Below are positions 22,605 to 53,072 of a DNA stretch of 64,000 nucleotides, piece by piece (positions within the stretch are counted from its first letter, which is position 1; the number at the start of each line of letters is the position of its first letter). This DNA is from Flammula alnicola (taxonomy: Eukaryota > Basidiomycota > Agaricomycetes > Agaricales > Strophariaceae): positions 123,137 to 187,136 of the forward strand of contig JADNRV010000109.1 of NCBI GenBank assembly GCA_015499995.1, written 5' to 3'. A model generated the notes under the pieces. The model was given only the letters and a program-made list of their open reading frames with translations, was not told the DNA's origin and made no database searches. The position numbers and the translations under genes are program-made.

Positions 22605-23858
22605 GGGCACCGTGATGCGAGAACCCAACCTCTAGGCAGTTGGAAACGGGGTAGCCGCAGGGTAGCCGCAATAACAACAGAAAAGAAAGACAATCGAAGC
22701 GTCGTTCACAACTCGGACCCTCGTCGAAGTTTTGGGTGAAACGATTCCAGGGTACCGCGTTTCCTTCAATTACTTGCGCATCGAAGTTGAGTCGACCTAC
22801 CTCCCAAGTATTCAACGCATTTCACCTGATTCAGGTGTCTCAGCTTGACCTTGGCACCTATGTGCCTCTGCCAATGCACTTCGGGGTCAGGGCGTCGAGG
22901 ATCGTCGTGAATTATGTCTAAGCAGTAAGATCTTGTGATTCCTGTCACCAAAAATCCAGGTTATAAGCTGAACGTTATCCAAACGAAATCCTAAGCCTCG
23001 CTTCCTCTGCACAACTTTCATCACATCATCGTCATCATGCGTGTTTCCTTCATCGTACTCACCATCCTCGGCGTTATCGCCTCTTCATCTGCCATCGCGC
23101 TCGAGTCTCGCAACGGCGGCAACCCTCGTAACATGTTTCTCATAGGCTCTGTTGTCATGTGCTGATCTTATCCTTTATCACACCGCAGAATGCTGCGACG
23201 ATTGTTTCGACTGTGATGACAACGACAACTTCGGTTGCAAGTCGCGTGACGACTTCGAATGCCTTTGCAAAAATAATGACTGGTGCGACGGCATGGAGAA
23301 GTGCTTCCGGGATAAGTGCGACAACGACGACGACTTTAAGCATGGCAAAAAGCGCGTCGACGATATTTGCGAGAAGGTAAGCTCATTCATCTTTTTCCAT
23401 CGTCCTTGTTTTCATTAGAACTTGTCGTTCAGCATCGTGGTTGGTGAATCATCGAGTTGCAGGATGCGCGAGGTCTCAGGTATCACACTTGAAATTGACA
23501 CTCCTATAGCTACATCAGCGAAAAAGCAGCTACTTTGATTTTGACTTTTTGTACTTCGACTTTCCGGCTTGAATGTTGGACACTTGTTACCTTGAATGTT
23601 TACTTTGATTTTCTGCGCTTTGACTTGTTGCCTGACATTTGGTTATTCTTTTGAAGTCCAAGTGAATTTGAGATAGTTTTCGAGAACCTATGGTCTTATC
23701 ACCAAAGTACGATTTTGTACATATGCAGTGCACTTGGAGATAACGCTCTGAAGATGCGATGCGATGTGATTACCAGCAGGCGGTCAAGATGATCACATTA
23801 TGGCGGTACCGCGGGTGGCAATATAAATACGACCTCTTTTCGTAACAAGCCACACAAT
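22605..23858 (+). repeat. CFEM-gene duplication unit, copy 1
   Basis: About 1.25 kb of sequence, including promoter, both introns and 3' flank, is shared with 34595-36085 and 51687-53072, all in the same orientation. The 5' landmark is an AACCCAACCTCTAGG-like motif and GAAAAGAAAGACAATCGAAG; the 3' landmark is a TACGACCTCTTTT motif. It is the most diverged of the three and lacks the ~300 extra upstream bp shared by copies 2 and 3. Confidence 0.85.
23037..23492 (+). CDS. CFEM-like small secreted cysteine-rich protein, copy 1
   Basis: About 102 residues. The signal peptide MRVSFIVLTILGVIASSSAI is followed by a mature region with the Cys pattern CC-x2-C-x2-C...GC...DDFECLC...C...C-x4-C...C. This resembles a CFEM domain, a fungal surface/secreted module that in some members binds heme or acts at the host interface. 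Exons 23037-23127 and 23189-23376 are secure. The last exon is not: acceptor before 23463 gives a short DARGLRYHT tail, and acceptor before 23419 gives a 39-residue tail ending at 23538. The first matches the exon that in copy 3 encodes an extra Cys pair; both of those Cys are lost here. The core is highly acidic (Asp-rich). Confidence 0.72.
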
Positions 23859-26416
23859 AAATACTTAGCGCTGAGACTTGTCATCGGCTTAGGCGGCAGA
23901 ATATTCTCATGCATTCGGATCAGGCAACCTTGAGTAGCGAATTTGAAAATCATCTCTTGCGACATATATCAGGCTCCCTTCTGACGTCTACTCTTTTCCG
24001 TTATGCATTCCTGAGTCATAATAAACTTTGTGACAGCCAAACCATGAACGAAAACGATCCGCGTTTGGCCTTTTGCTCTTGGGATAATACTGCCACTTTG
24101 ACCGACGCCCAGGAGGTTTGGGTAGGCTTATTTTCCGATCTGGCGGGCTTCGGTGCGGGGCAGAGATACATATCTTGGATTTCACAGCTTCACGCAGTTC
24201 CTGTTCCTTTAGATTCCCCAGCTATCGAGGTTGAGAATAATCTGCTGGCTACGCATCCGGTGTTGCATGTGGAGTGGCTTCTGCGATCCGTGGCGCCAGA
24301 AGGAAAAGTATCGTGTCAGAGGTGAGTGCGATCACATTACCCTCCTTTTGTCGAGCGATATTGGACTCTCTTCAGACTATTCCCCGTGGCTTTCTCCTCA
24401 GGTGTGACCGAAGCCTTCCATATTTTACTCTCCCGTACGTTTTGTTGAGAGATGGGGTATTGATGCGTTGTTTTCGTGCTTTCTTGCGCGATAATCCCAT
24501 AGGCATGCAGTATCGCCGTGTTTAATACATTCAGTCCAACCCATCCAAGGCGTCCAAAGTAAAAGTCAGAAGACCCGTCTGTCTATCTATTTCATACAAG
24601 TTTATGTCACCCTCCGTCTAGCCTCACGTTCATAAACTTCAACTCCATCCTTGACGTCAGCACGAGGCACTATTTCGAGGGTCGAGTATTTCTACTGTGC
24701 GACCCAATCGGATGCGTGGACAGCGCCCAAAAGGCAACGACTAGGAGGGCATTCGTGTGGAAGTTACGACGCCGGATTACGGCGATCATTACTGCGTCGC
24801 GCCGTACTTTCCCATTCACTAATGAGAGCTCTTTCGTTCGTATTATTGGTACAAAGTGGCATCTAGAGCCTCTAACTCGGCTAACGGCCGCGTATAAATG
24901 TGACATAAAATAATGTTTCTGTTACCCAGGATGTATAGAAATGAACCTGAAATACACTCAACTTGAAAGCGGACACGCGACGCGTTTTAAAGAGTCGCAT
25001 GGCAGTCGCATGGCAGTCGCGATAATCACGTTTCTGCCGGTCCGAGTTGGCCGCCATAACTTGCAATTCCCAAACTGACTGACGACGTTGTTCGAATTCC
25101 CTGTGAGAACGAGAACCAGGATTTCCGTGGCCTGAACTCTAATTCGATCTCATCTCAGAGCGACATAGACACTCATTAGACAATGACTACGGTGGAAAAG
25201 GAGGTAGGTACGGAAGAATTGAACGGCCGCGGTGGGCGCTAGGAGAAGGTATTATCAGGCATTTCCAAAGCGAGTTCGCCAGAAATCGTTGGACTTGCTG
25301 TATGGTATATCGCTGTTCAAGTTTGAGAGTGCTATAGTCTTCTGAATGGGAATGTCAGCTATATCCTTTCATTTACTGTACGATTTCGAGCGATTTCCAT
25401 GGTAAGCTGAATAAATACAGGCTGAAAAAGTCGACTACCGGGGTCGGATGAAATATTTTTTGGCCAGGGCGCCAGGCATCTGCCAAAAAAATTGTCGCCG
25501 CACGGGCTACTGCCCAGTGAACTATAGTCGTAACGCATCACAGGGCGTGAATATTTGGGCAAAATCGTACAATACAAGTATTTCTCTGATTCAGATGGTA
25601 TTTTCAACTTGAGTACTAAGGCATGATATCCCCGCGTTGTTTCCTCGGTGAAATATGCCAACAATAGACTGCGGGTCCTATCGGATGTCCAGTGCTTTCC
25701 TCCGATGCTCTGGAGTCTGAACACAGGACTATCAGCGAGCACGTCAACCTAGCTTCGCCGTTGGCATCGGGATATATTGACGCTTGGGCGTCAGTTCCTT
25801 TTTAAAGCATCGTCTATGCGAAATCGAACAATATTATTATATAGCCTTCAATCCTCGGGGGCCACGATCAATGGCACGCGGTTTACAATGTGAAATAGTC
25901 ACCGATATCCATGTCTGAACTTTGGGTGTGTCGTGGCAACGGTATTCCATGACGCCATGTACATGGTGAAGTCAAATTTCAGTGCCCGTGGGCCGTCGGG
26001 CAAAGGCCAGTCATGAAATTCGAAGCTCACGGTTTTCGTTGCATTACTCCATGGACCCATACATTAAATAAATGACTATTTTCAGGCCAAACTGTCCACA
26101 GGGTATGTAACGGCCGTATCTCGACGGCCGTCGCCTTCAGGGTGATGGCGCGTGCGCTTCTTACGACGAGAAGCCCGGATTGACAACATGGGTGACCTTG
26201 AGGCAATTATTTTCCTTTTAGGGAACTGTCAAAAATAGGGGTCGTCGACTCGTTATTTCCTCTACGTAAGCTTCGCGCTGGGCTGCCGTACACAAAGATC
26301 CGTGTGGGGTGTTTTGATCAAACTAACGGTTCGCACGAAGTTGTCGAAATAGTGAGAGTGGGGTGAGGTATTAGTCCTTCCAACCCCCAAGTACACCTCT
26401 ATTTCAAGTTGCCAAC
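23859..26416. other. Gene-poor region
   Basis: No confident gene in 2.5 kb. An ORF at 23909-24325 (138 aa) has plausible composition but no domain; it begins in the short repeat shared with 22396-22560. The minus-strand ORF 25359-25742 (127 aa) is also unrecognised. AT-rich and otherwise featureless. Confidence 0.45.
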
Positions 26417-34594: not shown

Positions 34595-36085
34595 ATTGTT
34601 TATTCCAGAGGCTGCTGGTAAGATTTGAAAATTTGAACTCTCACGTCTGTCCGAGTCGATGGCACTTGCTCAGTGAGCGCTCAACGCGCAACCTCAACCA
34701 CGACCCGAGTCTCACTTGCAATACTTAAACGTCTCTCTCTCTGCGCGCGAACTGGCAGAATTCTGAGTGTAATTTGCAATTCTTTCGGATCTGTACCGGA
34801 GTCAAACTCGGTCTCGTCTTGCTGGATCTTCCTCTGAGGCTCTGACACACATTCACTCTCTTGTTTTCTTGGGAATGCATTGATGTTCTAAACCGGGAAC
34901 CCAACCTCTAGGCTGGAAACAAGGTAGCCGCAACAACAACAGAAAAGAAAGACAATCGAAGCGTCGTTCACAAGTCGGACCCTCATCGAAGTTCGGGGTG
35001 AGACGATTCCAGGGTACCGTGTTTTCCTTCCACCGCTACTTGCACATCATAGCTGAGTCGTCCTACCTCCCAAGTATTCAACGCATTTCACCTGATTCAG
35101 GTGTCTCAGCTTGACCTTGGCATCTATGTGCCCCTGCCAATGCACTTCGGGGTCAGGCGTCGAGGATCGTCGTGAATTATGAGGTCTAAGCAATAAGATC
35201 TTGTGATTCCTGTCACCAAAAATCCAGGTTATAAGCTGAACGTTATCCAAACGAAATCTTAAGCCTCACTTTCTCTGCACAACTCCCACCACATCATCAT
35301 CATCATCATGCGTGTTTCCTTCATCGTACTCAGCATCCTCGGTGTTATCGCCTCTGCATCTGCCATCGCGCTCGAGTCTCGCGACGGTGGCCGCCCTCGT
35401 AACATGTTTCTCATAATATCTGTTGTCATGCGCTGATCTTATCCTTTATCACATCGCAGAATGCTGCGACGATTGTTTCAACCGTGATGACAACGACAAT
35501 TTCGGGTGCAAGTCGCGTGACGACTTCGAATGCCTTTGCAACAATAATGACTGGTGCGACGGCATGGAGAAGTGCTTCCGTGAGAATTGCGACAACGACG
35601 AGGACTGTGACCAGGGAAGAAAGCATGTCGACGATCGTTGCAAGGAGGTAAGGTCATTCTTCTTTTTCCATCGTCCTTGTTTTCATTAGAACTTGTCGTT
35701 CAGCATCGTCATTGGTGAATCCTCGAATTGCAGGATGTTCGAGAATGCGCGAGCTATCACACCTGAAATCGACGCTCCTATAGCGAAACCGCATCTACTT
35801 TGATTGTGAATTTTTGTACTTCTACTTTTTCTCTAACATTCAAGCCGGCTTTAGACACTTTGACATTTTGTCTGACGTTGAGTTATTCTTTTGAAGTCTA
35901 AGTGGATTCGAGAACCTATGGTCTTATTACAAAGGTATGATGTTGTTCATACACAGTGCGCTTGGAGATAACGTTCGGAAGATGTGATGCGATGTGATTA
36001 CCGGCAGGCGGTCAAGATATCGGATCATGTCGGTGCCGCGGGTCGCAATATACGACCTCTTTTTTGGTTATAACAAGCCACTCAG
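34595..36085 (+). repeat. CFEM-gene duplication unit, copy 2
   Basis: Shares its full length with copy 3 (51687-53072), beginning TTGTTTATTCCAGAGGCTGC, and its right ~1.2 kb with copy 1 (22605-23858). It ends about 280 bp before the nested transposon at 36369. Confidence 0.85.
35308..35766 (+). CDS. CFEM-like small secreted cysteine-rich protein, copy 2
   Basis: About 103 residues. The signal peptide (MRVSFIVLSILGVIASASAI) is nearly identical to the other copies. Exons are 35308-35398, 35460-35647 and probably 35734-35766. The CFEM-like core has GCKSRDDFECLC, a WCDGMEKC segment and ENCDNDEDCD, giving one additional Cys late in the core relative to copy 1. The last exon reads DVRECASYHT and keeps only the first of the two terminal Cys of copy 3, because the second position is Tyr and a stop follows. 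Same alternative-acceptor uncertainty as copy 1. Confidence 0.75.
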
Positions 36086-36955
36086 TACTCTCTCTCTCGA
36101 ATTGACCCAGTGAGGACTGGAAAAATTTGCGTTCAACCCTATCAATTCTCACCCAGAAAATGAAACAGTATTGAACTAAACAAATAAAAGTGAGGAGGTT
36201 AGACTGTTCTGCCCCATTTTATGCTCCGACTTACAGTGAGAGTCGGATGATAAAAATATCAACTTGCCGTCTACTCCGAAGGATTGCCGATTCGATCGCC
36301 GGCTCGGCTCCGGCAGCGACGCGGTCGGCCCTTCTTCAAGTTGAACAATCAGCTTACTGCTTAGTCTCTAGACCTGTGACCGATCCTAGTATGTGCCAAA
36401 ACCCACGATACTAGGACCTGTAAAGCGGGACTTGCCGGCTCTTGTCGCGCGCTATGATCGAGAGTGGAGCGTCCGGACATCACCGACGCTCCTTTTTAAG
36501 GCAAAGACCTCGAATAGGAAGGTACGATTTGGCCTGGATTTGGCAGAGCGCGTCTGAGAGCAAACTCGCGCTCACTTTCCCTTCATATGTAATCCTTTCT
36601 TTTAATTGTATGGTATGGCATCTGGCCCAACTCTCAGTGTATGGCTTCAGTTTTTTCGTACTTGTTCTCCCGGAGAGATTTCACGGCTGGTATCAGTGGA
36701 AATTCCTCAAGATCATCTTCCCCTAGGCTCGTGACCACCCTGTATATGAGATACTCGATATACAGGCTGGTCCGTCTGAGTTTAAATCCCTGTAGCGCGC
36801 GCCTCCCACGCCCTTCTCCATAAAAGGTTCGACGATTTTTGACCTCCCCTGAACAAATCTGGTCACGTTACACTGTCAACAAACGCGCTGCCTCTTTCAA
36901 ACGTGTCTATGGCTATGCTGGCACCTTGAATACAGGACTTAGAGCGCGTTTTTTT

Positions 36956-39241
36956 ATGGACAACGCGTCGATATTGGACGACAAACTTGCTAGGACCCGA
37001 CAGGCTCTTCAAAATATCCGGGAACTGCCCGCTACCCTCCTCAAATCTGCTTTTGATATTATTATCCCTGCTGATCGTGCTCCAGCGCCGACTTTCTGGA
37101 CGCCGTACAATGATAAAGAGAGACATATCGGGCTTCGAGCATGCCTCCTTGTCTGGACTGTAACTGAATACAAGCTGGTACCTCGGGAATTCCAGCTGGA
37201 GTCAACAATAGCGCTTATGACCGGAAAGGACTCCTTAATCGATGTCGGTACTGGCTATGGAAAGACTTTATGCATGGTCATACCTTGTCTACTGGCTCCG
37301 GAAAGTCTTGCTATTATTTTTTCCCCTCTCAAACGACTGCAAGCGGTTCAAGTACTGGAATTCACGCGCTATGGGATCGAAACAATTGCTATTAACGAGG
37401 ACACACCAAACGAGCCAGAGCTCTGGAAGGTTAGAGCGAGATGGACACTTGGTGGCTTGCATTGAAAATGTCCCTTTATATCCAGAAAATTAGCAGAGGA
37501 AAGTTCTCGGCGCTTTTTGTCCAACCGGAGCAACTCTTTACGATTGATGGACATCTACCTCGATTGGCGCGGTTGATGCAGGATCGCGCATTTGTCAAAC
37601 TGGTCAAGCGTACTCACGTTGACGAAGCCCATTTTATATATAGTGCAGGAATGGCGCACTATGGCTTACCTGCATTTCGGGCGGCTTGGGGCAAGCTAGG
37701 CGAATTTCGAATCAAAGTTGGGAAAGGCATTCCCATACAGGCGCTCTCTGGCACGCAGCCTCCTCATATCAAAAAAGCTATCATCGCCAGCCTTCTTTTT
37801 GACGAGGCCAATCTTTGCTCCATCAAACTGTCAAGCAACCGTCCAAACATTGTTTATGCAACTCATCCTATTGTCGGCGAGCTCTCTGACTTTCGAAATC
37901 TCGACTTTCTCGTTCCAGATGACTGTCCATCCGATATAAGACTTCCGAAAACCATTGTTTTCCATGATGATTCCAAGGAATCTTCAAGTGCGGCCCTTCA
38001 TGTCGACCGTCGGCTTCATACATCCCTTCAGGACAAAGGAATTGTGCGACACTACCACGGAGGAATGTCAACCGAGTACCTAACTAAAGTATACGAGGAT
38101 TTTAGCAAGACTGATGGCGTCTGTCGGATTTTACATGCCACGTCAGGCGCATCTACCGCATGTTCTTATCTTTTGATCTCTTATTTATTACTTATCCATC
38201 TATATAGGGACTTGACATCTCAGATATCGAGGCTGTTGTTCAATACGGGATTTCACGAGATGTGCCGTCAACGCTTCAACGCTGCGGGAGGGGTGGAAGA
38301 TCCTCTTCAGGAGAGGCAATTTTTTTAATTATGTATGAGCCGTGGGCACTCGACATTGACCTTTTCAGTACCGAAGAAGACCCAACTGATCCGGACTTTC
38401 CTAATAATGGAAAATTGACGAAACATGCAACCAAGATCCAACGTACCGGAAGAGCGATGATAGCTGCAGTTCAATCGAAAGAAGATTGCCTTCGTGGGTT
38501 TTGGGCAAACTATTTGAAGGATCTATCCCTCACTGGTAAGCAAATACTTCCTTTCTATTTCTAACTGATGCCATGTGCAAATTTTCAGCGCGTACATTCA
38601 CGACGGAGTGGTGTTGTGATCGACATCCAGGATCCGGATTTCACATTAGACGATACTTCAAAGGTCGCTTTCTGTATCAAGATGGAACCTTGAGTCTCTT
38701 ATATGGCGATATTGATGAAATAGATCGCAAAGAGATTCTCCCACCGCGGAAGGGAAAGCGCCCTGCTGGAAAAAAGGTTCGCGCAACAAAAGACCGCATG
38801 GAGCTCAAATCACGTTTGCTCCTTTGGCGCACCGATACCCATTCAAATGACCCTCTGGCCTCTGTACAACCGCCTTCCTTTATTCTCGATGATAAAGCGA
38901 TCAAGACTTTGGCAATAATACATCCAACCGAGATCAGAAACACTACGCAAGTTGTTCTTGCGCTGAACGAAATAGACGAGTGGGATCAAGAGTGGTCGAA
39001 GAAAATACTTGCGGTCATCCGCACATATGATAAAGAGTTGGATGATGCTCGAAAGGCTGCTGTTGCACAGGAGAAGGCTCGACAGAAGCGAAGGAAAGTT
39101 GAAATAGACAAAGCCTTGTTCCAGGAAGAATCTGATCGTGTTCGAGCTGAAACGGAACGTCGGATACAAGAGTCTGCTGCCCAAGGATCCTCGCGTTTTG
39201 CTAATACAGATATTCGCCGTAATCTACGGCCTCGAAAGTAG
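36956..39241 (+). CDS. RecQ-like DEAH helicase of the mobile element
   Basis: A 708-residue superfamily 2 helicase, likely ATP-driven DNA unwinding during movement of the element. Exons: 36956-37429, 37486-38157, 38208-38535 and 38589-39241. Motifs: I GTGYGKT (98-104), II DEAH (204-207), III-like ALSGTQPPH, IV-like KTIVFHDDSKE, V-like ATSGASTGLDISDIEAVVQY, VI QRCGRGGR (406-413). After the core comes a WCCDRH segment, perhaps a remnant of the RecQ zinc-binding region. A Lys/Glu/Arg-rich coiled-coil tail ends NLRPRK. The second intron starts GCATGT (GC-AG); using the nearest GT would break motif V. The first ATG follows the left terminus by ~230 bp; a longer non-ATG opening exists. It converges on the DUF6589 gene, with stops 29 bp apart. 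Confidence 0.88.
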
Positions 39242-39270
39242 TTACCAGTCCTTAATAAATAACCAACTGT

Positions 39271-41945
39271 TCACTGCTCTGTATCAACATCCTCTAAATT
39301 TCGACCGAGAGCCAGCTCTGGTAGTGTATCGGTATCTTCTGATGGTTCGGGCTGATAAAGGTGACCATCTTTCATTGCCATAATCTTTCGATTGAACGTT
39401 CCAAGGGAAGATGACTTGAGTTTCTGTTCTCCCACTGCGAGAATGTCAAGAACGGGGATTACTTTGTCATTACCGTGCCTATCTTTTTTGAATGTTTGAA
39501 GTTTTTCATCCCGGGCATTATTCGCAATGAGCCAGACCAGAGGAGTTGTATCTGGTTTAGTATGTGTCGTACTTTGATAGGCGGTACTCATTGCAGTTGC
39601 AACCTGTTTTTTGACCTTTTTAAGGTAGTCGATTGCGGCCGAAATATTTCCAAGGCGATCCCATGTTGATTGCAGGCCTTTTGCTTCAAGTAAAATCTGC
39701 AAATGTAAATGTAGGGCATAAGAAAGAGATTAGCAACATGTTATCATACCTTGAGCTCTCCGATAAGGTGCTCGATGTTAATATCGATTGGCATAGAGTG
39801 ACCTTCAAGCCCCGAGACATTCACAAGCATGTTGTCGTGCATAATATCTCTGGAAATAAAGAATAAGTTTTAACATTATTAATAATTAAAGAAGATGGAC
39901 GCACGCAAATTCCGGAGTCCACACATGCAGAAGATTAAATATGAAGTGCAGGATTTCTGTGCAGTAATTATTCCCTCCTGCACCTCGAAACATCATCCCG
40001 AGCTGGGGAAGAAAATCTTCTATGCAACCTATATCGCCATCTGAAATAGCTCGAACGAGTTCTGCGACATAAATAAGGTCGCGCGTGAGCAGTCGGATAT
40101 TGTGGTAAGCTACATCATCTTCTGGGTTCGGGCATTGTGCTTGTGCTGGTTGTGGCCGCGGCGCGGAACCTGCGTCAATGTGTCGTGCATCTGAATTTCC
40201 AGAGTCTGTATTGTTACCTTCACTCTCGTCGGAGGACTCCATCTCGTCATCGTTAGGCTTGGCCATTGGAGTCGCGTACTGCAATAGAATTTGTTGCGCG
40301 ATAGCAGAAAGCTGTTCTGGAGTAGGCTTTGACTCGGCAAATTCCTTTAGATTACTATGCCCACATTCCTCACGCCAGGCATTGAGTAAGAGTCCATCAC
40401 GAATTTGCGTAAGAGTGGCCAGAAGTGTATGATAATCTGGGTGTTCACCTCCGAGACGAGCTTTTGAAAGCAGGGTGAAAAAATAAGTCAAACTCGAAGC
40501 CTGTTCAACGCCGCCTCGATGAATATGAAGAAGAGCCCAGACCAAGTTGAGGCAAAGATGAAATAGGCCGAACCCAAGCTGGAATACCTGTCTCTGAGTC
40601 CAGGGATTCAAATCGCGCAAGCGAAGGATTTGTCCGGAGCGAATACGGGAATTTGTGAGTTGATCATTGAATGTCGGAATGGCATACTTGGATAAATGTT
40701 CTGGATCGCGCTTGAGTTGCGTAAGGTAGACATCATCGTGAAAGAGCAGATTGCCTCGGACGGTTGCTTCGTCAATGGTTGTTGCGCGGATTGGGTATTG
40801 TTCTGTTATATGACCTTTAGGCATAGGCCGTCGAGGCTTGTGTTGGAGGGCGGGAACTAGTGCATAGGATTCAAAATGTTCCGAAAATGTTGTGAGAACC
40901 CGAATGATGATGATCACAAGCTGAAATTGAAAAGATTCCAACTGTGCTCGTGTTGGTCGGACGTCGCGGTTAAATTCCAGTCCCACCGCATTTTTCAGCC
41001 GTTCCAGAATTGGTGCAAGCTTCATATGTTCGGGATTTCCGTTCCTGACCTTGTAGATAACGCCGAAAGTGCCCGATGTCACCTTTGCAGGCCCGAGAGA
41101 TCCTCTTTGCTCGACAAATATAGAGGTACTGAAATTGACGTTATCATAGCAGAACATATGCATTCCACGGCCGACTTGAATAGCCAGCTGGATGCAGTGG
41201 TTGGCAAGCGACTCAATGATTTTTAGGACCGAAGTGTAACAGACGGAGAGGCCGCATCTATGAAGCGCTTCGATGGTTTGCCGTGCACACCCTGTGGTCC
41301 ACAGAAAGAGGCCAAACTGTCCAGCAAATCCAAGGGAGAAGTGAGAGCGTTGGAAGCATAGCTGCTTCATGATTACGTTGCAAGTCTAGAGATAATAAGA
41401 TTAGTACTCGAAGGTTAGAGAAAGCAAAGTAATCTCACTCCAAGGGGCGTCTTCTTCTTATTCTTTTCCTTTGCGGACGCTGTTTCCGCAGCTGTTAAAA
41501 GGATCTGAAATAGGAATGGGGCGCTTTCTCGGTGCCCAGATACTGTCCAGCTATTGATGAATTCTGGTGTGATCGCGGAGAGACCAGGCAGCTTCTCAGC
41601 CTCTTGTACTACATCCATTTCCGTTGTCACTTTCTCGCAAATCAGCTCCAGAGCATGTGAAAGAATCAATTCATTCAATTTTTTCTTCCCAGCTGTACTG
41701 GACAAGACGAGGTCGAGGAATTGACCAAGCTTCCTGTTTTCGGCTTTATAAAACTCATTTCGGTATGCAGAAAACTGGGGGTTTGATTCGTCGAGTACAT
41801 CGAGTACAAGATCAAATGGGCTCAGACGACCATCGCGTAAAACGTTGAGCACATTCTCAATGCGTTCGGCTCGAGAAAATGTTTTCGAAGGTCCAGGAGA
41901 TTCAGGAGCATCTTGATCAGAAGAATCTGATTCAAAATTTTCCAT
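39271..41945 (-). CDS. DUF6589 protein, candidate recombinase/transposase
   Basis: An 837-residue protein. Exons: 41945-41439, 41385-39905, 39849-39750 and 39696-39271, all in phase and free of stops. The N-terminal ~170 residues are helical. The DUF6589 region follows: WTTGCARQTIEALHRCGLSV, then a strongly patterned FCYDNVNFSTSIFVEQRG (Asp at residue 250), FHLCLNLVWALLHIHRGGV, EECGHSNLKEFAESK, an acidic Ser/Asp-rich linker, then NMLVNVSGLEGHSMPIDINI and GLQSTWDRLGNISAAIDYL. The last two blocks are the usual C-terminal DUF6589 signature as I recall it. No biochemical function is established to my knowledge. Its position as the only large non-helicase gene of the element makes it the best transposase candidate (inference), with Asp250 a possible metal ligand. 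Confidence 0.85.
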
Positions 41946-42004
41946 CTCAAGTGAAATCGAGCTGCAAAATCAAATACATTTGAGAAAGATACAAAATAAA
42001 TGTT

Positions 42005-42340
42005 TTAATGAATTCGAACAGACGTGGTATCAAGATCCTCAAAAAAACCACTCTCCGCTACGTCCTCCTCCTGTGTCGGTGCCAAATTCGGCTTAGAAGT
42101 TGGAATAAATTTGAAGGTGGAAGGTGGTATATAAGGCCCAGAACGATTGACATTTCTTGCGAGATTGGAGACGAGGCCCGCCGCCAGCTCGGATGTTGAA
42201 CTTGAAGCTGTTGCAGTAGCAGAAAAATTGGTGAATTGCGTGTCAGACGCGAGAGGGTTGGGCTTCGGAGGTTTTCGAGGTTTTTTTGGTGGCGCAGGTA
42301 CAGCGGAGGCGAGGATATCAGCGGCGCTTCGGGGAGGCAT
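42005..42340 (-). CDS. Small MPPR protein of the inner element
   Basis: A 111-residue single-exon protein, transcribed in the same direction as the DUF6589 gene and ending 59 bp before its start codon. The N-terminus MPPRSAADILASAV is followed by a basic proline run (PPKKPRKPPKP), a Ser/Thr/Ala-rich middle (ATATASSSTSE), and an acidic end (EEDVAESGFFEDLD). It looks disordered with a DNA-binding basic patch; no family is recognised. A gene with a similar MPP start in the same relative position (about 200-250 bp inside the right terminus, minus strand) exists in the outer element (44355-44810), suggesting a conserved third component. The ATG at 42340 was preferred to an in-frame codon at 42367. 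Confidence 0.6.
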   Translation of the reverse strand: MPPRSAADILASAVPAPPKKPRKPPKPNPLASDTQFTNFSATATASSSTSELAAGLVSNLARNVNRSGPYIPPSTFKFIPTSKPNLAPTQEEDVAESGFFEDLDTTSVRIH

Positions 42341-42547
42341 ATTGCAGCGATGAGACCTTGTGCGCAAGGGAGAAAAAATTGCAGGACCGGAAAGATTTGG
42401 CGTGAGCCGGACCGGATTGTTCAGGGGAGGTCAAAAATCATCGAACCTTTTATGGACAAGGGCGTGGGAGCCGCGCGCTACAGGGATTTAAACTCAGATT
42501 TACCGGTCTGTGTATCGCAGGTTTACCTTCATGCACAGACGGTCACC

Positions 42548-44331
42548 CCCAGTGAGAATGCCGGCGGTTCCGTTTGGCTCAGATTGGTTGCCCTCGGTAT
42601 TTACCAATTCCATGTGTTCAAATCGGTTATAGTTGGTCAAATTATTATCATTCTGTACCTAGCTCAATTCTCCTCGGATAAATCTTAGCCTGAATTTCTC
42701 GATGTCCTAAATTCATCCAAAATGCACCCTACATATTCATCTCAACGATCTCAACACAGAGCGCACTTTTGACAAGTTCACACGGCACTGCCACCAGTGT
42801 CGTCTCATTTGCCTCAAACTGTGATCGACTTGTCTGTCCCTCTCCTCGCTCTGCTCGACCACTATGTTTTGACACAAGACTATTCCTAAATGGCTTCTCA
42901 ACCGAAGGAATTTCATTGCAATTGCCAGCGCTTTTGCCGTGGCCGTGAAACCTGAGACCACCATAAAAAACAATGAAAGCCTCAAGAAATTTTTCAAGCA
43001 CTGACAGCGCCAGTCGGGTCAAGAGAAGTCGACTACTATCGAACCAACACCCCGTGCGACACCGCTGCATGTGCAACTTGGTGGTCATGAGCAGGTGCGA
43101 GTACCAACAGTATCATTTCGATAATGCTCACCATGTTATACAAGAAATTGTAGGCACCGTTATTCAACCAAACCCTGTTGCCGCCACAAAATACCGAAGG
43201 TTCCAGATGTTCAACATCCTCCAGAACTGGCCACATCTACTGCGAAGGGATCGGTGTTTCCTCTCGAAGAAGTAACGGACGTTGGAATGGGTGGAGATAA
43301 GGGTTTAGGCAATGGAGAGATCGGGTCGCAGAAGGCATCTCAGCCATTCAAAGTATGTGTGATTTGCAATCTTATTGGGATGATACTTACTATACTCCTA
43401 CTAGTTGTTGCTGAAAAATGCCCTGTGAGTCTCTCTCCCCTTTGTCATTTGGCCGTTAGCCTGTTACTGACAGTCTTCTGTAGGGCGTACTCTGCTCACG
43501 TCACCTCTGGCCCCGCGGCCTCTCGTCTTGATGCCCTCAAATTGAATGGTATGTTTATTGATCCTTGCTCTTGTTCTTCACTAACAGATACCTCTCATCT
43601 CCAGCTACAAAATCCACAAAAAGCGAAATGGTTGCAATGCCATCAAGCTCAGGCTTGCCATCCGCTTGTGAAAGTGTCCTCACCACACCTTCGGCACCCC
43701 TGTTTCCACCGAATGCTGCCGTTTTCGACGAATAGCTTTGCTGAGTGGTTTGTTGATCCTGCTACGTCGATACAATATCATACCGACTAATTGTAGGAAT
43801 CTTTTTGGGGACAAATATTGCAAGACAAATAAACGCGCCACGAAGCAAGAGGTGAAGGACGCGTTTGAAGCACTCTCGGATAGCGAGAAGCAGGTCAGTT
43901 TGTTTCTCGAGCATCCCGCAATCTTTTAACTAATTGAATGTCTAATTTAAGAAATGGTCTGCTCTGCATAAAGAGAAACTCGCACAAAAGAAGGAAGCAC
44001 GAAATGCTGTGGCCATGGGGCAGTGAATGGGCGAAGTGGCTCGAGGGTAGGATGGCGAGGGTCAATATGGCACACTATGTGTTGGTTCTTTTCGGTTCTC
44101 TTCGGTACACCGTATTACGTAGTACATGTAGTGGTATTGTCAGAAATTAACCAATCTCATTCTATTAAAGCTACAGCAATTCTTTTATTGAGTCGATGCC
44201 AACCCAAACTAACCGATGACAATCGGTTAGATTCTAAATCCTGTGTTGTTATCGGTTTTGATCGGTGACATGTGCCCAAATCCGATTTCAACCAAAGACA
44301 ACCAACCTGAACCGCCGGTATTCTCACTGGG
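42548..44331. mobile_element. Third nested TIR element, inserted in a terminal repeat
   Basis: 1784 bp. The left end is CCCAGTGAGAATGCCGGCGG; the right end, inverted, is CCCAGTGAGAATACCGGCGG, one mismatch in 20. It is flanked by the 7-bp direct repeat GGTCACC (42541-42547 and 44332-44338), which is part of the host element's terminal motif. Subterminal AACCGAT/ATCGGTT motifs recur in both orientations near the right end (44190-44280), as in subterminal binding-site arrays of cut-and-paste elements. The superfamily is not assigned: the 7-bp duplication and CCCAGTG terminus do not match a group I can name with confidence. The interior has only broken reading frames. Confidence 0.8.
43797..44026 (+). 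pseudogene. HMG-box-like exons inside the third element
   Basis: Two exons (about 43797-43893 and 43952-44026) joined in phase 0 across a GTCAGT intron read LFGDKYCKTNKR, ATKQEVKDAFEALSDSEKQ, then KWSALHKEKLAQKKEARNA and a stop. The pattern of a conserved Phe-Gly block, a Leu-Ser-Asp-x-Glu-Lys turn and a Trp is reminiscent of HMG boxes. Upstream exons (43254-43790) cannot be joined without in-frame stops, so this is probably a decayed gene of the inserted element. Confidence 0.4.
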
Positions 44332-44354
44332 GGTCACCGGTCTAATCTTCCCCT

Positions 44355-44810
44355 TCAATACCTCGAGAGCTTTTCAGAAGAGAACAAGACTGTCTGTTTT
44401 TGAGCATCAATGATTTGCTGGGCTGTTACTGGAAGTGCTATGGTTCCCCGAGAACCTGCTCTATCCACTATATTGTCGGTTGGCCCAGTATCCAACTCCA
44501 TCGCGTACCCCAAATCTAGCATATTCAACGGTGTCTGCGGGGTCGGCATTCCATATGCAATCGATGTTGAACTTGGATCCAGTAGAGGAGCAGTGTTGGA
44601 TATGTTGAGGTCCCAGTCGGAAAGACGCGTCTTCTGGACGTTCGAGCTCTGGAAAGTCGGTTCGCGTTGTGATTTTCTCAGTAGCTTGTCCTCGTCCTCG
44701 GCCAAAGTTCCTAGCAAAGCGAAGCTCATCATTGTTGTCGAGGTCGCTCCTGATACATTTTCTTGTTGGCTTAATGACAGTTTTACACGGAAAGATGGTT
44801 TTGGAGGCAT
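44355..44810 (-). CDS. Small MPPK protein of the outer element
   Basis: A 151-residue single-exon ORF on the minus strand, starting MPPKPSFRVKLSLSQQENVS and ending FSSEKLSRY. Its stop codon is two bases from the ATCTTCCCC duplication left by the inner element, so the inner insertion narrowly missed the coding region. Contents: Ser/Thr-rich, with an acidic stretch (TLAEDEDK) and a Pro/Thr motif (MPTPQTPLNML). No family was recognised. It occupies the same place and orientation relative to the right terminus as the MPPR gene of the inner element, but sequence similarity beyond the start is weak. Confidence 0.45.
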   Translation of the reverse strand: MPPKPSFRVKLSLSQQENVSGATSTTMMSFALLGTLAEDEDKLLRKSQREPTFQSSNVQKTRLSDWDLNISNTAPLLDPSSTSIAYGMPTPQTPLNMLDLGYAMELDTGPTDNIVDRAGSRGTIALPVTAQQIIDAQKQTVLFSSEKLSRY

Positions 44811-45055
44811 CAGATACAGAAGCGAGTGTAGATGAGGGAAGGAAGGAAGCAAGGACGACCGCTGTCGATGCGCTCCGCCAAATCGTACCTTCCTATTCGA
44901 GGTCTTTGCCTTAAAAAGGAGCGTCGGGCATGTCGGAACAATTCATTCTCGATCATAGCGCGCGACAAGAGCCGGGAAGTCCCGGTTTTCCAGTCCTCAT
45001 ATCGAGGGTTTTCTCATATGATATATGAGGGCTGGTCACGAGTCTACTTAGTCTC

Positions 45056-48000
45056 CTTCACAGACTCCTTAGTGATGATCAATCGATCACTTGATATGGA
45101 CTTACTGCTCCCATTCCGTCATCTTCGTGCGCGTGAATTAATGGTACCCTCCGTCGTCCATGCTTCGCAGTGCACATCCTCCTCTTGCATCCATTCTGCG
45201 TTGCTATATCACCATGGTAAGTCTGCAATCTCGTCACCCCACCCTCATATTCACCTTCTTTTAGCCCAGATTGAGCCCATCATGCCCATATACAGGGCCT
45301 TGTACAGATTTGCACTCATTCCCCCGCTGCCTCCCAGACGTCGTTGATTATTCGAGTGCTTCTTTCCACCGCCACACAAATGTTGACGCGATAGATCATC
45401 TTCTCTTTGCGCCGTCATTGTCAGTTGGCAACTTTCTCCCGTTTTCGTGCCCGCAGAGCCGACATGGATGTATTCACTTGCAGGGCAACTGACACACTCC
45501 TCCGCCCATCCCCACCCCTTAAGCATTCCTGACCGCCTTCCCCCCCGCAAGTGCCCGTTTCTTGGATCTCTCTTCCGCCACGTTGGCTTTTATCGACTCT
45601 GAGACCCCCAGTCCGTTGTAGAGCACCAGGGGTCGGGGATTGGAGTACATACCTGAGGCTGGACCAACGCATGGACGCAGTACGTTCTTGGACGGAGAAT
45701 TTGCTCTCGGGCTTGCCGTGCAGGTAGACAAGGGCTGCATGGCGAGGTGCGCCAGGGTAGTGGATCCGTTGACCGAGCAGAGGGATAGAACCGAGGACAG
45801 AATGCTGAATCTGCTGTACATGCAATACTAGTAGGCCCATCGGATGCCTCAGATGACGGGCAGATCATCCATTAACAGGTCCAGCAGGTGTAGATGTGTA
45901 CTTGGGGAGGAGGGCAGCAGAGGAAGGCACTCCATTTCATGTGTGTTCCTCTCTTTTCTTGCGTTTTCGTTTGCTCCGCATTCTTCCTTTTCTCGTTTCT
46001 CGTTTCCCTCTTCTGCTCCGCGTGGTTTTGCGCTTTTCTGGCTATTATATGGGTCATCTCTCGCGCTTCCTCATTTTTTTTTGCTTTTTTTTTTGCGTTC
46101 TGCCTTCGCGTTTTCGGGCTTCGTATTTTCGCCCAGCAGTTCGCGCCTTGCCATGCACTTTTGGATGCATTTTCTTTTCTTTCTCAGTGCTACTCCCCAC
46201 ATTGCAGCTCGTTCCTGGGGTCTCGGGTCTCGTTTTCGTTTACATGCCTTGCGCTGTTTTTTCTTCGCTGCACCCCTATTTATGGTTGGGGTTGCGCAAC
46301 CGTTAATCGGCCAATGCCGGAGACTTGGCGTTAGGCAAAAATAGTCAGCTGGCGTCTCTGCCCCAGCGCATCCCCACGTACAGTATGACACAGGTATAAC
46401 ACGGCCGTCTAGCATGAAGAACCGAAATTTATCTATGGACCACAACTTGAATCCCAGCCATCGCCCCATTCTGGTGGTCAGTGATTTCAACTTACTTAGA
46501 GGACTTGCTAATCCTAATTTTCTTGCAGAACCGCAACTGTTTGGAACCTTGGAGGGGAAAACACGACCAGCATGGGCCCCAAGTACCAGAGGCGACAGAG
46601 GCATCGTTCCGACGGTATTTATGGCCATCGGCATCATAGTGCGTCTTCCTTCCAATCTTGCCATGGCGATTGGACCGCGCGCTGGCTCGGAGACTGACTG
46701 CGTCCATAAATTTCTTAAGTGCGCTCATGTGGATCTGCATCTCGTCGTCCACTTCGGACACCGCAGCCTGCTGCCTCCTGGCTCCTGCGGTGATATGTCC
46801 TCCATTATAGTCCAAAACGAGTTGTTGCGGTGGAGGTGTTCACGCAGTATGTGCGCCTCGCTTTGCAGGAGTAAGACTATTTGGATCAAAATTGAGCTGT
46901 CAGGATCCGTTTGTGTCAAGGAAGCATAGTGTGTCAAGGAGGTGTATTACACTGTACGTTACGAGCGAGCCTCGTTCTGTCTGTCTTTTCTAGATCATTT
47001 ACGAAATGTTCGGAGTGACACTTGTTCCGGTAATTGTTCTTTACGCGCGTTCTTCAGAATTACAGTAGATAACTTATGCATAGACTCCCGAGACCCGAGG
47101 GTCGTTTTTAGGTCCAATCACAAATAGTCGTATCTTGGTCATTTCTCTTCAACGGACATCTCGAAGACACTGCCCTGCAACCAGGCTTCATTCGGTTAGG
47201 GCTTCTCCCCGACACTATTGACTCACGCCATGCACAAATCCCTAGGCCGCCTTGTTTAGTACGTTCTTGGACACGAATATGATTTATATTTTCACGTCGC
47301 GGGAGGAATTATAATCGACTCTACGCGTATTCCCCAACCCAATTTCGTTTCTCCGTTACACGGCATGGATGAGGAACCTCCTCTACTAATATGGCCACAT
47401 GGGCTAAACGACCTTATGGTTACGGTTATTTGGCGGGCAACTTAGGATTCAGGGCATTCGTGGAAGTATCGTAGAAATTTACTCAGATATTCGCTTGCAA
47501 GGCAATAGAAATAGACCCTCAGACAAGCCTTCCGCAATTGAAACCAGTTCCACTAAGGCAAAATCGTGCATTGAAAGCAGGGCCGTATCGCTTTCTTTCA
47601 CTTTGCCTCCTCCGGTAAATTTTCGCATTCCAGGGAAGATATTTCTCTCTCACGTTTTTCTGCCTGCACCAAACGAGGTACGAGGGTTACTTGCCTCGAG
47701 TCTTAAATTTTACTTTCCCTGCAACGCACTCGGGGATATAAGTAAATACCAGGCCCGTGAATCAAGGTTTGAATGCGTCGGGAAGAAATGTTATTGGTCA
47801 ATCGAGAGGGTTTCATTGTGGGAATACCGATTGTTTGGGGCGATTGTCTGCCCTGTGGAACACGGACAAGCTGCACCCTTCTGGTTGGAGGGTTTTCCTC
47901 CTTCCTTCCTTAGTTTAATATTTTTCAAATAAGCTCTCCCATGCCGTGCTTAAAAATGTTGGAATATCACGAGGCAATGCGAGTGTGTGCAATGCACCCG

Positions 48001-51686: not shown

Positions 51687-53072
51687 CGTTGGCTATTGTT
51701 TATTCCAGAGGCTGCCGGAGGCTGCTGGTAAGATTTGAACTTTGTCACTGCCCAAAGCGCAACCTCAAGCTTCCACCACGAGTCTAACTTGCAATATCTA
51801 AGCGTCTCTCTCTTCGCCCCGACTGGAAGAATTCTGAGTGTAATTCGCAATGCCTTCTCGTTTTGGTTTATCTCGGATCTGTATCAAACTCGGTCTCGTC
51901 TTGCTGGATCTCACTCGGGCAAACATTCACACTCCTTTCTCCCCTTTTCTTCCTTGGGGATGCGTTCACGTTCTAAACCCAATCTCTTGGCAGTTGGAAA
52001 CAAGGTAGCCGCAACAACAACAGAAAAGAAAGACAATCGAAGCGTCGTTCACAAGCCGGACCCTTGTCGAAGTTTGGGGTGAGACGATTGTAGGATACCG
52101 CTTTTCCTTCAATGACTACTTGCGCATAACAGTTGAGTCGATCTACCTCCCAACTATTCAACGCATTTCATCTGATCCAGATGTCTCAGCTTGACCTGTG
52201 CATCTATATTGCCTTGTACCTCTGCTAATGCACTTCGGGGTCAGACGTCGAGGATCGTCGTGAATTATGAGGTCTGAGCAGTATGATCTTGTGATTCCTG
52301 TCACCAAAAATCCAGCTTATAAGCTAAACGTTATCCGAACAAAATCTTAAGCCTCACTTTCTCTGCACAACTTCCACCACATCATCATCATGCGTGTTTC
52401 CTTCATCGTACTCAGCATCCTCGGTGTTATCGCCTCTGCATCTGCCATCGCGCTCGAGTCTCGCGACGGTGGCCAGCCTCGTAACACGTTTCTCATAAGC
52501 TCTGTCGTCATGCGCTGATCTTATCCTTCATCACATCGCAGAATGCTGCGACGATTGTTTCAACCGTGGCGACCACGAGAACTTCGGGTGCTCGTCGTGT
52601 GACGACTTCGAATGCCTTTGCAAAAACAATGACTGGTGCGACGGCATGGACAAGTGCTTCCGTGAGAAGTGCGACAACGATGACGACTTTAAGCGGGTCA
52701 AAAAGGATTTCGATGACCGCTGCAAGCCTGTAAGCTCATTCATCTTTTTCCATCATACTTGTTTTCATTAGAACCTGTCGTTCAGCATTGGTGAATCGAC
52801 ATCGAATTGCAGGATGATCGAGAATGCGCGAGCTGTCCTCCTGAAATCGACGCTCCTATAGCGAAACCGCATCTACTTTGATTTTGTCTTTTTGTACTTT
52901 GACTTGTTCTCCATTCAAGCCGGCTTTAGAACTTTGACTTTTTGTCTGACATTGGGTTATTCTTTTGAGGTCTAAGTTGATTCGAGAACCTATGGTATGA
53001 TGTTGTGCATACACAGTGTGCTTGGAGATAATGTTTTGAAGATGTGACGTGGCGTGATTACCAGCAGGCGGT
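51687..53072 (+). repeat. CFEM-gene duplication unit, copy 3
   Basis: Homologous to 34595-36085 over nearly all its length and to 22605-23858 over the right part. It ends in the GATTACCAGCAGGCGGT motif; the final ~60 bp present in copies 1 and 2 are missing. Confidence 0.85.
52390..52881 (+). CDS. CFEM-like small secreted cysteine-rich protein, copy 3
   Basis: 115 residues. Exons 52390-52480, 52542-52729 and 52813-52881. The signal peptide MRVSFIVLSILGVIASASAI is followed by a CFEM-like core: CCDDCF, then ENFGCSSCDDFECLCKNNDW, then CDGMDKCFREKC. The third exon encodes DDRECASCPPEIDAPIAKPH, then LL and a stop, adding a C-x2-C pair that is half lost in copy 2 and fully lost in copy 1. This is probably the most ancestral C-terminus. 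The core also has Ser-Ser-Cys where the others have Lys-Ser-Arg, a Cys gain. It is likely secreted; the role could be heme capture or interaction with another organism (family knowledge, not shown here). Confidence 0.78.

Follow-up and report, generated by a model that had tools for sequence, protein, structure and literature searches.

We analysed a 64,000-nucleotide (nt) stretch of the Flammula alnicola genome (contig JADNRV010000109.1 of assembly GCA_015499995.1, referred to here as the window) and found that positions 36724 to 44344 most probably represent an AcademH-type cut-and-paste DNA transposon. The element is a well-delimited unit whose inverted YAG...CTR ends lie between 9-base-pair (bp) target duplications. 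The same genome has several related families and non-autonomous derivatives, and a recurrent pair of genes, one for a RecQ-like helicase and one for a protein of the Pfam family DUF6589 (PF20231), is found in them. The element moved within this genome in recent times. An earlier interpretation made from the letters alone (the sequence-only reading) had proposed a DNA transposon combining these two proteins with 9-bp duplications and TAG ends, and our analysis supports this proposal.

Results

The ends of the element

The boundaries claimed in the sequence-only reading proved correct to the base, with an exact copy of the 9-bp duplication ATCTTCCCC on either flank (Table 1). The terminal sequences TAGGCTCGTGACC, read from 36724, and TAGACCGGTGACC, the reverse complement read to 44344, match at 10 of 13 bases, and the subterminal inverted repeat that had also been described is present, its arms being 91% complementary. 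Hairpins had been proposed at both ends. The left one is clear, with a DNA folding energy of -12.7 kcal/mol (z -4.5) that none of 200 shuffles equalled; the right one, read on the inner side of a later insertion, is weaker (z -2.2, equalled by 5 of 200 shuffles).

To judge chance we looked for sequences that had both an exact 9-bp duplication and ends of the form YAG...CTR in agreement at 9 of 12 positions. This combination did not occur in 1200 shuffles (300 for each of four 9-kb loci), made in blocks of two bases, which do not preserve the dinucleotide content exactly. Five of six real loci contained it, the miss being L037 with its duplication of 8 bp. Two instances were found between 36001 and 45500 of the window, and none in the rest of the window taken in overlapping 9-kb slices.

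The transposon sits inside a related, shorter element, which provided a test for empty sites. The two flanks were joined by script and aligned to other genomic copies of this outer family. Against the copies on C107 and C246 the joined flanks gave an ungapped alignment of 197 nt across the junction, with 171 of 197 positions identical and a single copy of the target. The element is therefore absent from these sites with exactly these ends, and the junction in the uninterrupted related site corresponds exactly to 36724 and 44344, as the sequence-only reading required.

The two genes of the element

Gene structures were built as our own in-frame exon models. The helicase gene (36956-39241, four exons) encodes 708 amino acids with matches to PF00270 and PF00271, in agreement with the RecQ-like helicase reported earlier. 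The NCBI model, P0121 (695 amino acids), is 98% identical to ours but not the same, and its best matches in the PDB are the RecQ-family helicases RecQ, BLM, WRN, Q1 and Q5.

The DUF6589 gene (42340-39271, five exons) encodes 948 amino acids and matches PF20231 with E=1.7e-98. The sequence-only reading also listed a separate small MPPR protein, and here we differ. The MPPR frame runs through an intron, GTCTGT..GCAG (42023-41962), in frame into the DUF6589 gene. Two of the 120 listed DUF6589 relatives match the exon at their N-termini in BLAST, P0012 (73% over 25 amino acids, E 1e-4) and P0032 (E 0.006); by eye, P0009 and P0007 also begin in a similar way. On this sequence evidence the small protein very probably corresponds to exon 1 of the DUF6589 gene. 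The NCBI model P0001 begins in exon 2, and the MPPR exon is therefore missing from the public annotation.

The gene pair in this genome and in other fungi

Searched with the PF20231 profile, the 74.4-Mb genome shows 74 matches, counted by exon, and 14 control genomes show none. Of the 27 contigs that carry DUF6589, the window included, 13 also have a helicase match no more than about 8 kb away. When ends were sought at ten such pair loci, again counting the window, eight had YAG...CTR inverted ends with a duplication, seven of 9 bp and one of 8 bp. The expectation that helicase/DUF6589 pairs share their ends thus held at these eight loci and failed at C112 and C545, where no duplication was seen.

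Three of the copies, found on C201, C323 and C223, share 99.8-99.9% identity along 5.2 kb, stop together at TAGTCTCGGACCAGC and its inverse, and lie in different flanks. Each holds both genes (the domains were checked on one), and their duplications are GGAAGGGGT, TCCGTTGCG and the 8-bp GGTGCTTG. Exact 9-bp duplications flank the other families too: GTCCTTTGC on C848 (ends TAGGTTCGGA), GAGTTGGCT on C623 (ends CAGACTCC, with an inverted repeat of 142 nt), GTTATGCCT on C667 (ends CAGGCTCC) and CCCTGTTGA on C261 (ends TAGGCTCGTGACCAG / TAGACTCGCGACCAG). Inverted-repeat arms in the other families measure 108 nt, and 23, 142 and 37 + 105 nt.

Short copies were also observed. A 74-bp copy on C858 (L004) consists of both ends of the window element, TAGGCTCGTGACCACCC... 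and ...GGTCACCGGTCTA, within its own 9-bp duplication ACTATACAG, and shows the right end free of the later insertion. Eight of the ten short or partial loci scanned have an exact 9-bp duplication; the two others, L041 and L043, are the window's own locus and C107, where the scanned stretches stop before the far end. A separate observation is an 872-bp copy on C8 (L003, 1464-2335) with TAGACCG ends, the 9-bp duplication ACCTCTGCC and subterminal sequence in common with the window element.

The pairing extends to other species. In a search of public proteins, 30 of the 120 listed DUF6589 matches (the window's included) lie on a contig equal in length to that of a listed helicase match. Most of these contigs are long, only four being under 60 kb, and the count therefore measures a shared contig rather than adjacency. 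The two genes are numbered consecutively in Candolleomyces aberdarensis (EST38_g3858/g3859) and Dentipellis fragilis (EVG20_g10773/g10774). Distance matrices of the two proteins agree across the 30 pairs (r 0.884, reached in none of 2000 permutations), a correlation partly owed to shared species history. Among the best 120 of 167 DUF6589 relatives from a search with a diverse alignment, all those with an organism name are fungi; this search scores only proteins with common short exact words and is no evidence of absence in animals. A Flammula alnicola protein was matched at 100%, and the listed named relatives are mushroom-forming fungi, in keeping with the occurrence of AcademH in fungi including Basidiomycota.

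DUF6589 as a putative transposase

PF20231 was found in all 54 of the DUF6589 proteins that we aligned. Counting only proteins with a residue at the position (P0001 numbering), D250 is Asp in 53 of 53, D410 is Asp in 50 of 51, H445 is conserved in 53 of 53 and E689 is Glu in 47 of 48. The Asp250 singled out in the sequence-only reading is this first position. A second alignment of nine proteins, whose members are 16-24% identical to the protein of the C201 copy, keeps D250, D410 and E689 in every row that reaches them (9, 8 and 6 rows). The DN pair at 250 is invariant there, and the second Asp stands in the contexts GDRLT, GDLLT, GDLRT, NDQLT, NDQST and ADLHT across eight rows. An Asp at the close of a hydrophobic stretch, another Asp placed likewise, a His motif and, late in the sequence, a Glu would be compatible with a DDD/E core that contains a large insertion.

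Besides the helicase, DUF6589 is the only other large gene in the element, and the scan of proteins and open reading frames revealed no other transposase domain. Neither Pfam nor PDB profiles tie DUF6589 to a known transposase. From the recurrent pairing, the co-inheritance and the conserved acidic residues we infer that DUF6589 is probably the transposase.

A nest of insertions

The transposon lies in a nest of four layers. The outermost is a 52-bp repeat; next come the outer short element and the complete element, and the right end of the latter contains an element of 1784 bp. Without its passenger the outer element is 1048 bp long, has ends of the same kind as the inner one (TAGACCTGTGACC, TAGACTCGTGACC) and is flanked by the duplication CTTAGTCTC (36360-36368 / 45047-45055). 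Its left 347 bp has 40 matches in the genome, where one copy may match by both ends, and on C107 and C246 this left end continues into a helicase match. The 1784-bp element is a different one. It has the inverted ends CCCAGTGAG, a 7-bp duplication GGTCACC (42541-42547 / 44332-44338) and 44 matches in the genome. By eye, 7-bp duplications were seen at four of five other copies examined and not at L052.

The locus L056 (C51:78043) matches the window at 34845-36361 and 45101-47200, with 98.0% identity on the left and 99.6% on the right, and lacks the entire nest. It is an allelic or duplicated empty site, and most simply the whole nest is younger than the split between the C51 and window copies.

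Two further observations concern these flanks. The 52-bp repeat (start TAGTCTCC) lies at 36353-36361 and 45049-45109 and is present in the genome in more than ten near-identical copies; its insertion seems to have produced a duplication of 8-9 bp, CTTACTGC(T), and the outer element seems to have entered it afterwards. The left half of L056, which matches 34845-36361, also aligns at about 83-85% to 51950-53072 and 22618-23859, and these stretches within the window suggest a locally repeated sequence.

Table 1. Positions of the transposon, its genes and the surrounding insertions in the window.
Feature	Position	Strand	Comment
Whole transposon	36724..44344	.	7621 bp including the later 1784-bp insertion; termini, duplication, ungapped uninterrupted related site
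Left target-site duplication ATCTTCCCC	36715..36723	+	
Right target-site duplication ATCTTCCCC	44345..44353	+	
Left end TAGGCTCGTGACC with terminal hairpin	36724..36784	+	fold z -4.5
Right end, outermost 13 bp, TAGACCGGTGACC	44332..44344	-	separated from the remainder by the later insertion; uninterrupted in L004
Subterminal inverted repeat, left arm	36756..36856	+	101 nt
Subterminal inverted repeat, right arm	42417..42517	-	91% complementary
RecQ-like helicase exon 1	36956..37429	+	PF00270/PF00271 in the spliced protein
RecQ-like helicase exon 2	37486..38157	+	
RecQ-like helicase exon 3	38208..38535	+	preceding intron taken as GC-AG
RecQ-like helicase exon 4	38589..39241	+	
DUF6589 gene exon 1	42024..42340	-	earlier 'MPPR protein'
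DUF6589 gene exon 2	41439..41961	-	own model equals NCBI P0001 from its Met here to the end
DUF6589 gene exon 3	39905..41385	-	
DUF6589 gene exon 4	39750..39849	-	
DUF6589 gene exon 5	39271..39696	-	
Outer non-autonomous element, left part	36369..36723	+	related; received the inner transposon; TAGACCTGTGACC end
Outer non-autonomous element, right part	44345..45046	+	TAGACTCGTGACC end
Later insertion, different 1784-bp element	42548..44331	.	ends CCCAGTGAG; 98% copy on C334

Discussion

Such an element might move as follows. DUF6589, as a DDD/E-type transposase, would bind the inverted and partly hairpin-forming ends, cut them and join them to the target at cuts staggered by 9 bp, which host repair would convert into the target duplication. 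The best candidates for the catalytic triad are D250, D410 and E689. The RecQ-like helicase may play an accessory part, opening or remodelling either the ends or the product of strand transfer. Short copies whose ends match are presumably mobilised in trans, and the host element at 36369-45046 is itself non-autonomous and has ends of this kind.

The AcademH lineage was reportedly described by Kojima in 2020 (Mob DNA 11:15). The sequence-only reading knew of no described class with this gene set, a view that we do not retain, since two sources describe AcademH as a helicase-encoding lineage of Academ with duplications of 9 or 10 bp, found in fungi including Basidiomycota (PMC10045372, PMC10799480). 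An element-encoded helicase, 9-bp duplications and a basidiomycete host are therefore common to both. The same sources state that the helicase 'seems related' to the duplication length, and place in the same superfamily AcademX, which differs from our element in having duplications of 3 or 4 bp and a nuclease in place of the helicase (PMC10045372, PMC10799480). They also call AcademH low-copy, whereas the present genome has several families and short copies in large number. In another agaric, Marasmius oreades, putative non-autonomous insertions of Academ are reported to be widespread (PMC8290104), and a further source lists Academ among the superfamilies with a DDD/E transposase (PMC9587614).

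The assignment draws on the helicase, the duplication length, the inverted ends and the host group. Terminal inverted repeats are a feature of AcademH, which the window element shares with its match of 10 in 13 bp. Several observations weigh against the assignment. Pfam profiles gave no credible remote relative of DUF6589 (best other E 0.011, in one of the 54 members), and a profile search among PDB chains gave none either (best E 0.35). P0121 reaches E=5e-29 and 101 bits on the NCBI RecQ family model, under the cut-off of 220, and for this reason we use the wording RecQ-like. Fourteen of the 27 DUF6589 contigs showed no nearby match to the single helicase query; distant helicases were missed because this query was the window's version only. 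Two of the ten pair loci, those on C112 and C545 (L058 and L060), gave no duplication; inverted repeats are present on C112, and no ends were found in the stretch examined on C545. The single 8-bp duplication is that of L037, and gene orientation varies, being convergent in the window and divergent on C261 and C112. The terminal hairpin is not significant at the left end of L039 (z -0.7) or the right end of L040 (z 0.1), and hairpin ends were rejected as a universal feature on these grounds. Two further glutamates look conserved at first, but E611 is kept in just 39 of the 54 proteins, and the C623 and C667 families have another residue in place of E646; after this recount both were rejected as the third catalytic residue for their poor conservation.

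Could the element belong elsewhere? One alternative is a helicase-bearing superfamily distinct from Academ, in which DUF6589 would be a transposase or nuclease of unrelated origin and the likeness to AcademH would be confined to gene content and duplication length. The lack of detectable sequence kin of DUF6589 in other Pfam families or PDB chains would suit it, and the term DUF6589 was not found in the literature searched, with most subscription papers and Repbase outside that search. We nevertheless consider it rather improbable, since the helicase, the 9-bp duplications and the occurrence in Basidiomycota all agree with AcademH as described in the sources cited above. A further proposal, that DUF6589 is a transposase family whose role is unstated in print by that name and which powers a diverse, recently mobile, helicase-bearing group apart from Academ in mushroom-forming fungi, has a modest chance of being right. 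Because the term DUF6589 was absent from the literature searched, within the limits given above, a link between DUF6589 and AcademH may be unstated in print.

Kolobok elements have TTAA as their target duplication, and MULE or MuDR elements have 9-bp duplications. The latter feature is shared by our element, and no MULE transposase domain appears among the 16 Pfam families listed at E up to 1. KolobokH is a fungal lineage that carries a RecQ helicase, as our element does, but its helicase lies downstream of the transposase domain (PMC9587614). Here the helicase is a separate gene on the opposite strand and the duplications are 9 bp of other sequence, so that a KolobokH element is scarcely credible. 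It is very improbable that DUF6589 and the helicase are cargo or accessory proteins of a transposase encoded elsewhere. The existence of short copies whose ends match makes movement in trans probable and speaks for this reading; yet both genes recur together in independent families here and on shared contigs in other fungi, and no further transposase domain turned up among the scanned proteins and open reading frames. The helicase, and the hairpins that some of the ends can form, would suit a Helitron or other rolling-circle element. Helitrons combine Rep/HUH with a PIF1 helicase and leave no target duplication, however; the inverted ends and 9-bp target duplications contradict this reading, and with no Rep/HUH or PIF1 domain in either the helicase or the DUF6589 protein we regard it as next to impossible.

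With an AcademH-type transposon as the preferred explanation, the new point is the likely job of DUF6589 and not a new class of transposon. Pfam describes DUF6589 as a family of unknown function, for which a role in transposition can now be offered as likely from its sequence context. Such a function could therefore allow the annotation of fungal genomes to recognise many 'hypothetical proteins' as transposon genes. The near-identical copies, empty sites and short derivatives described here also provide a practical system in which to study the role of a RecQ-like helicase in DNA transposition.

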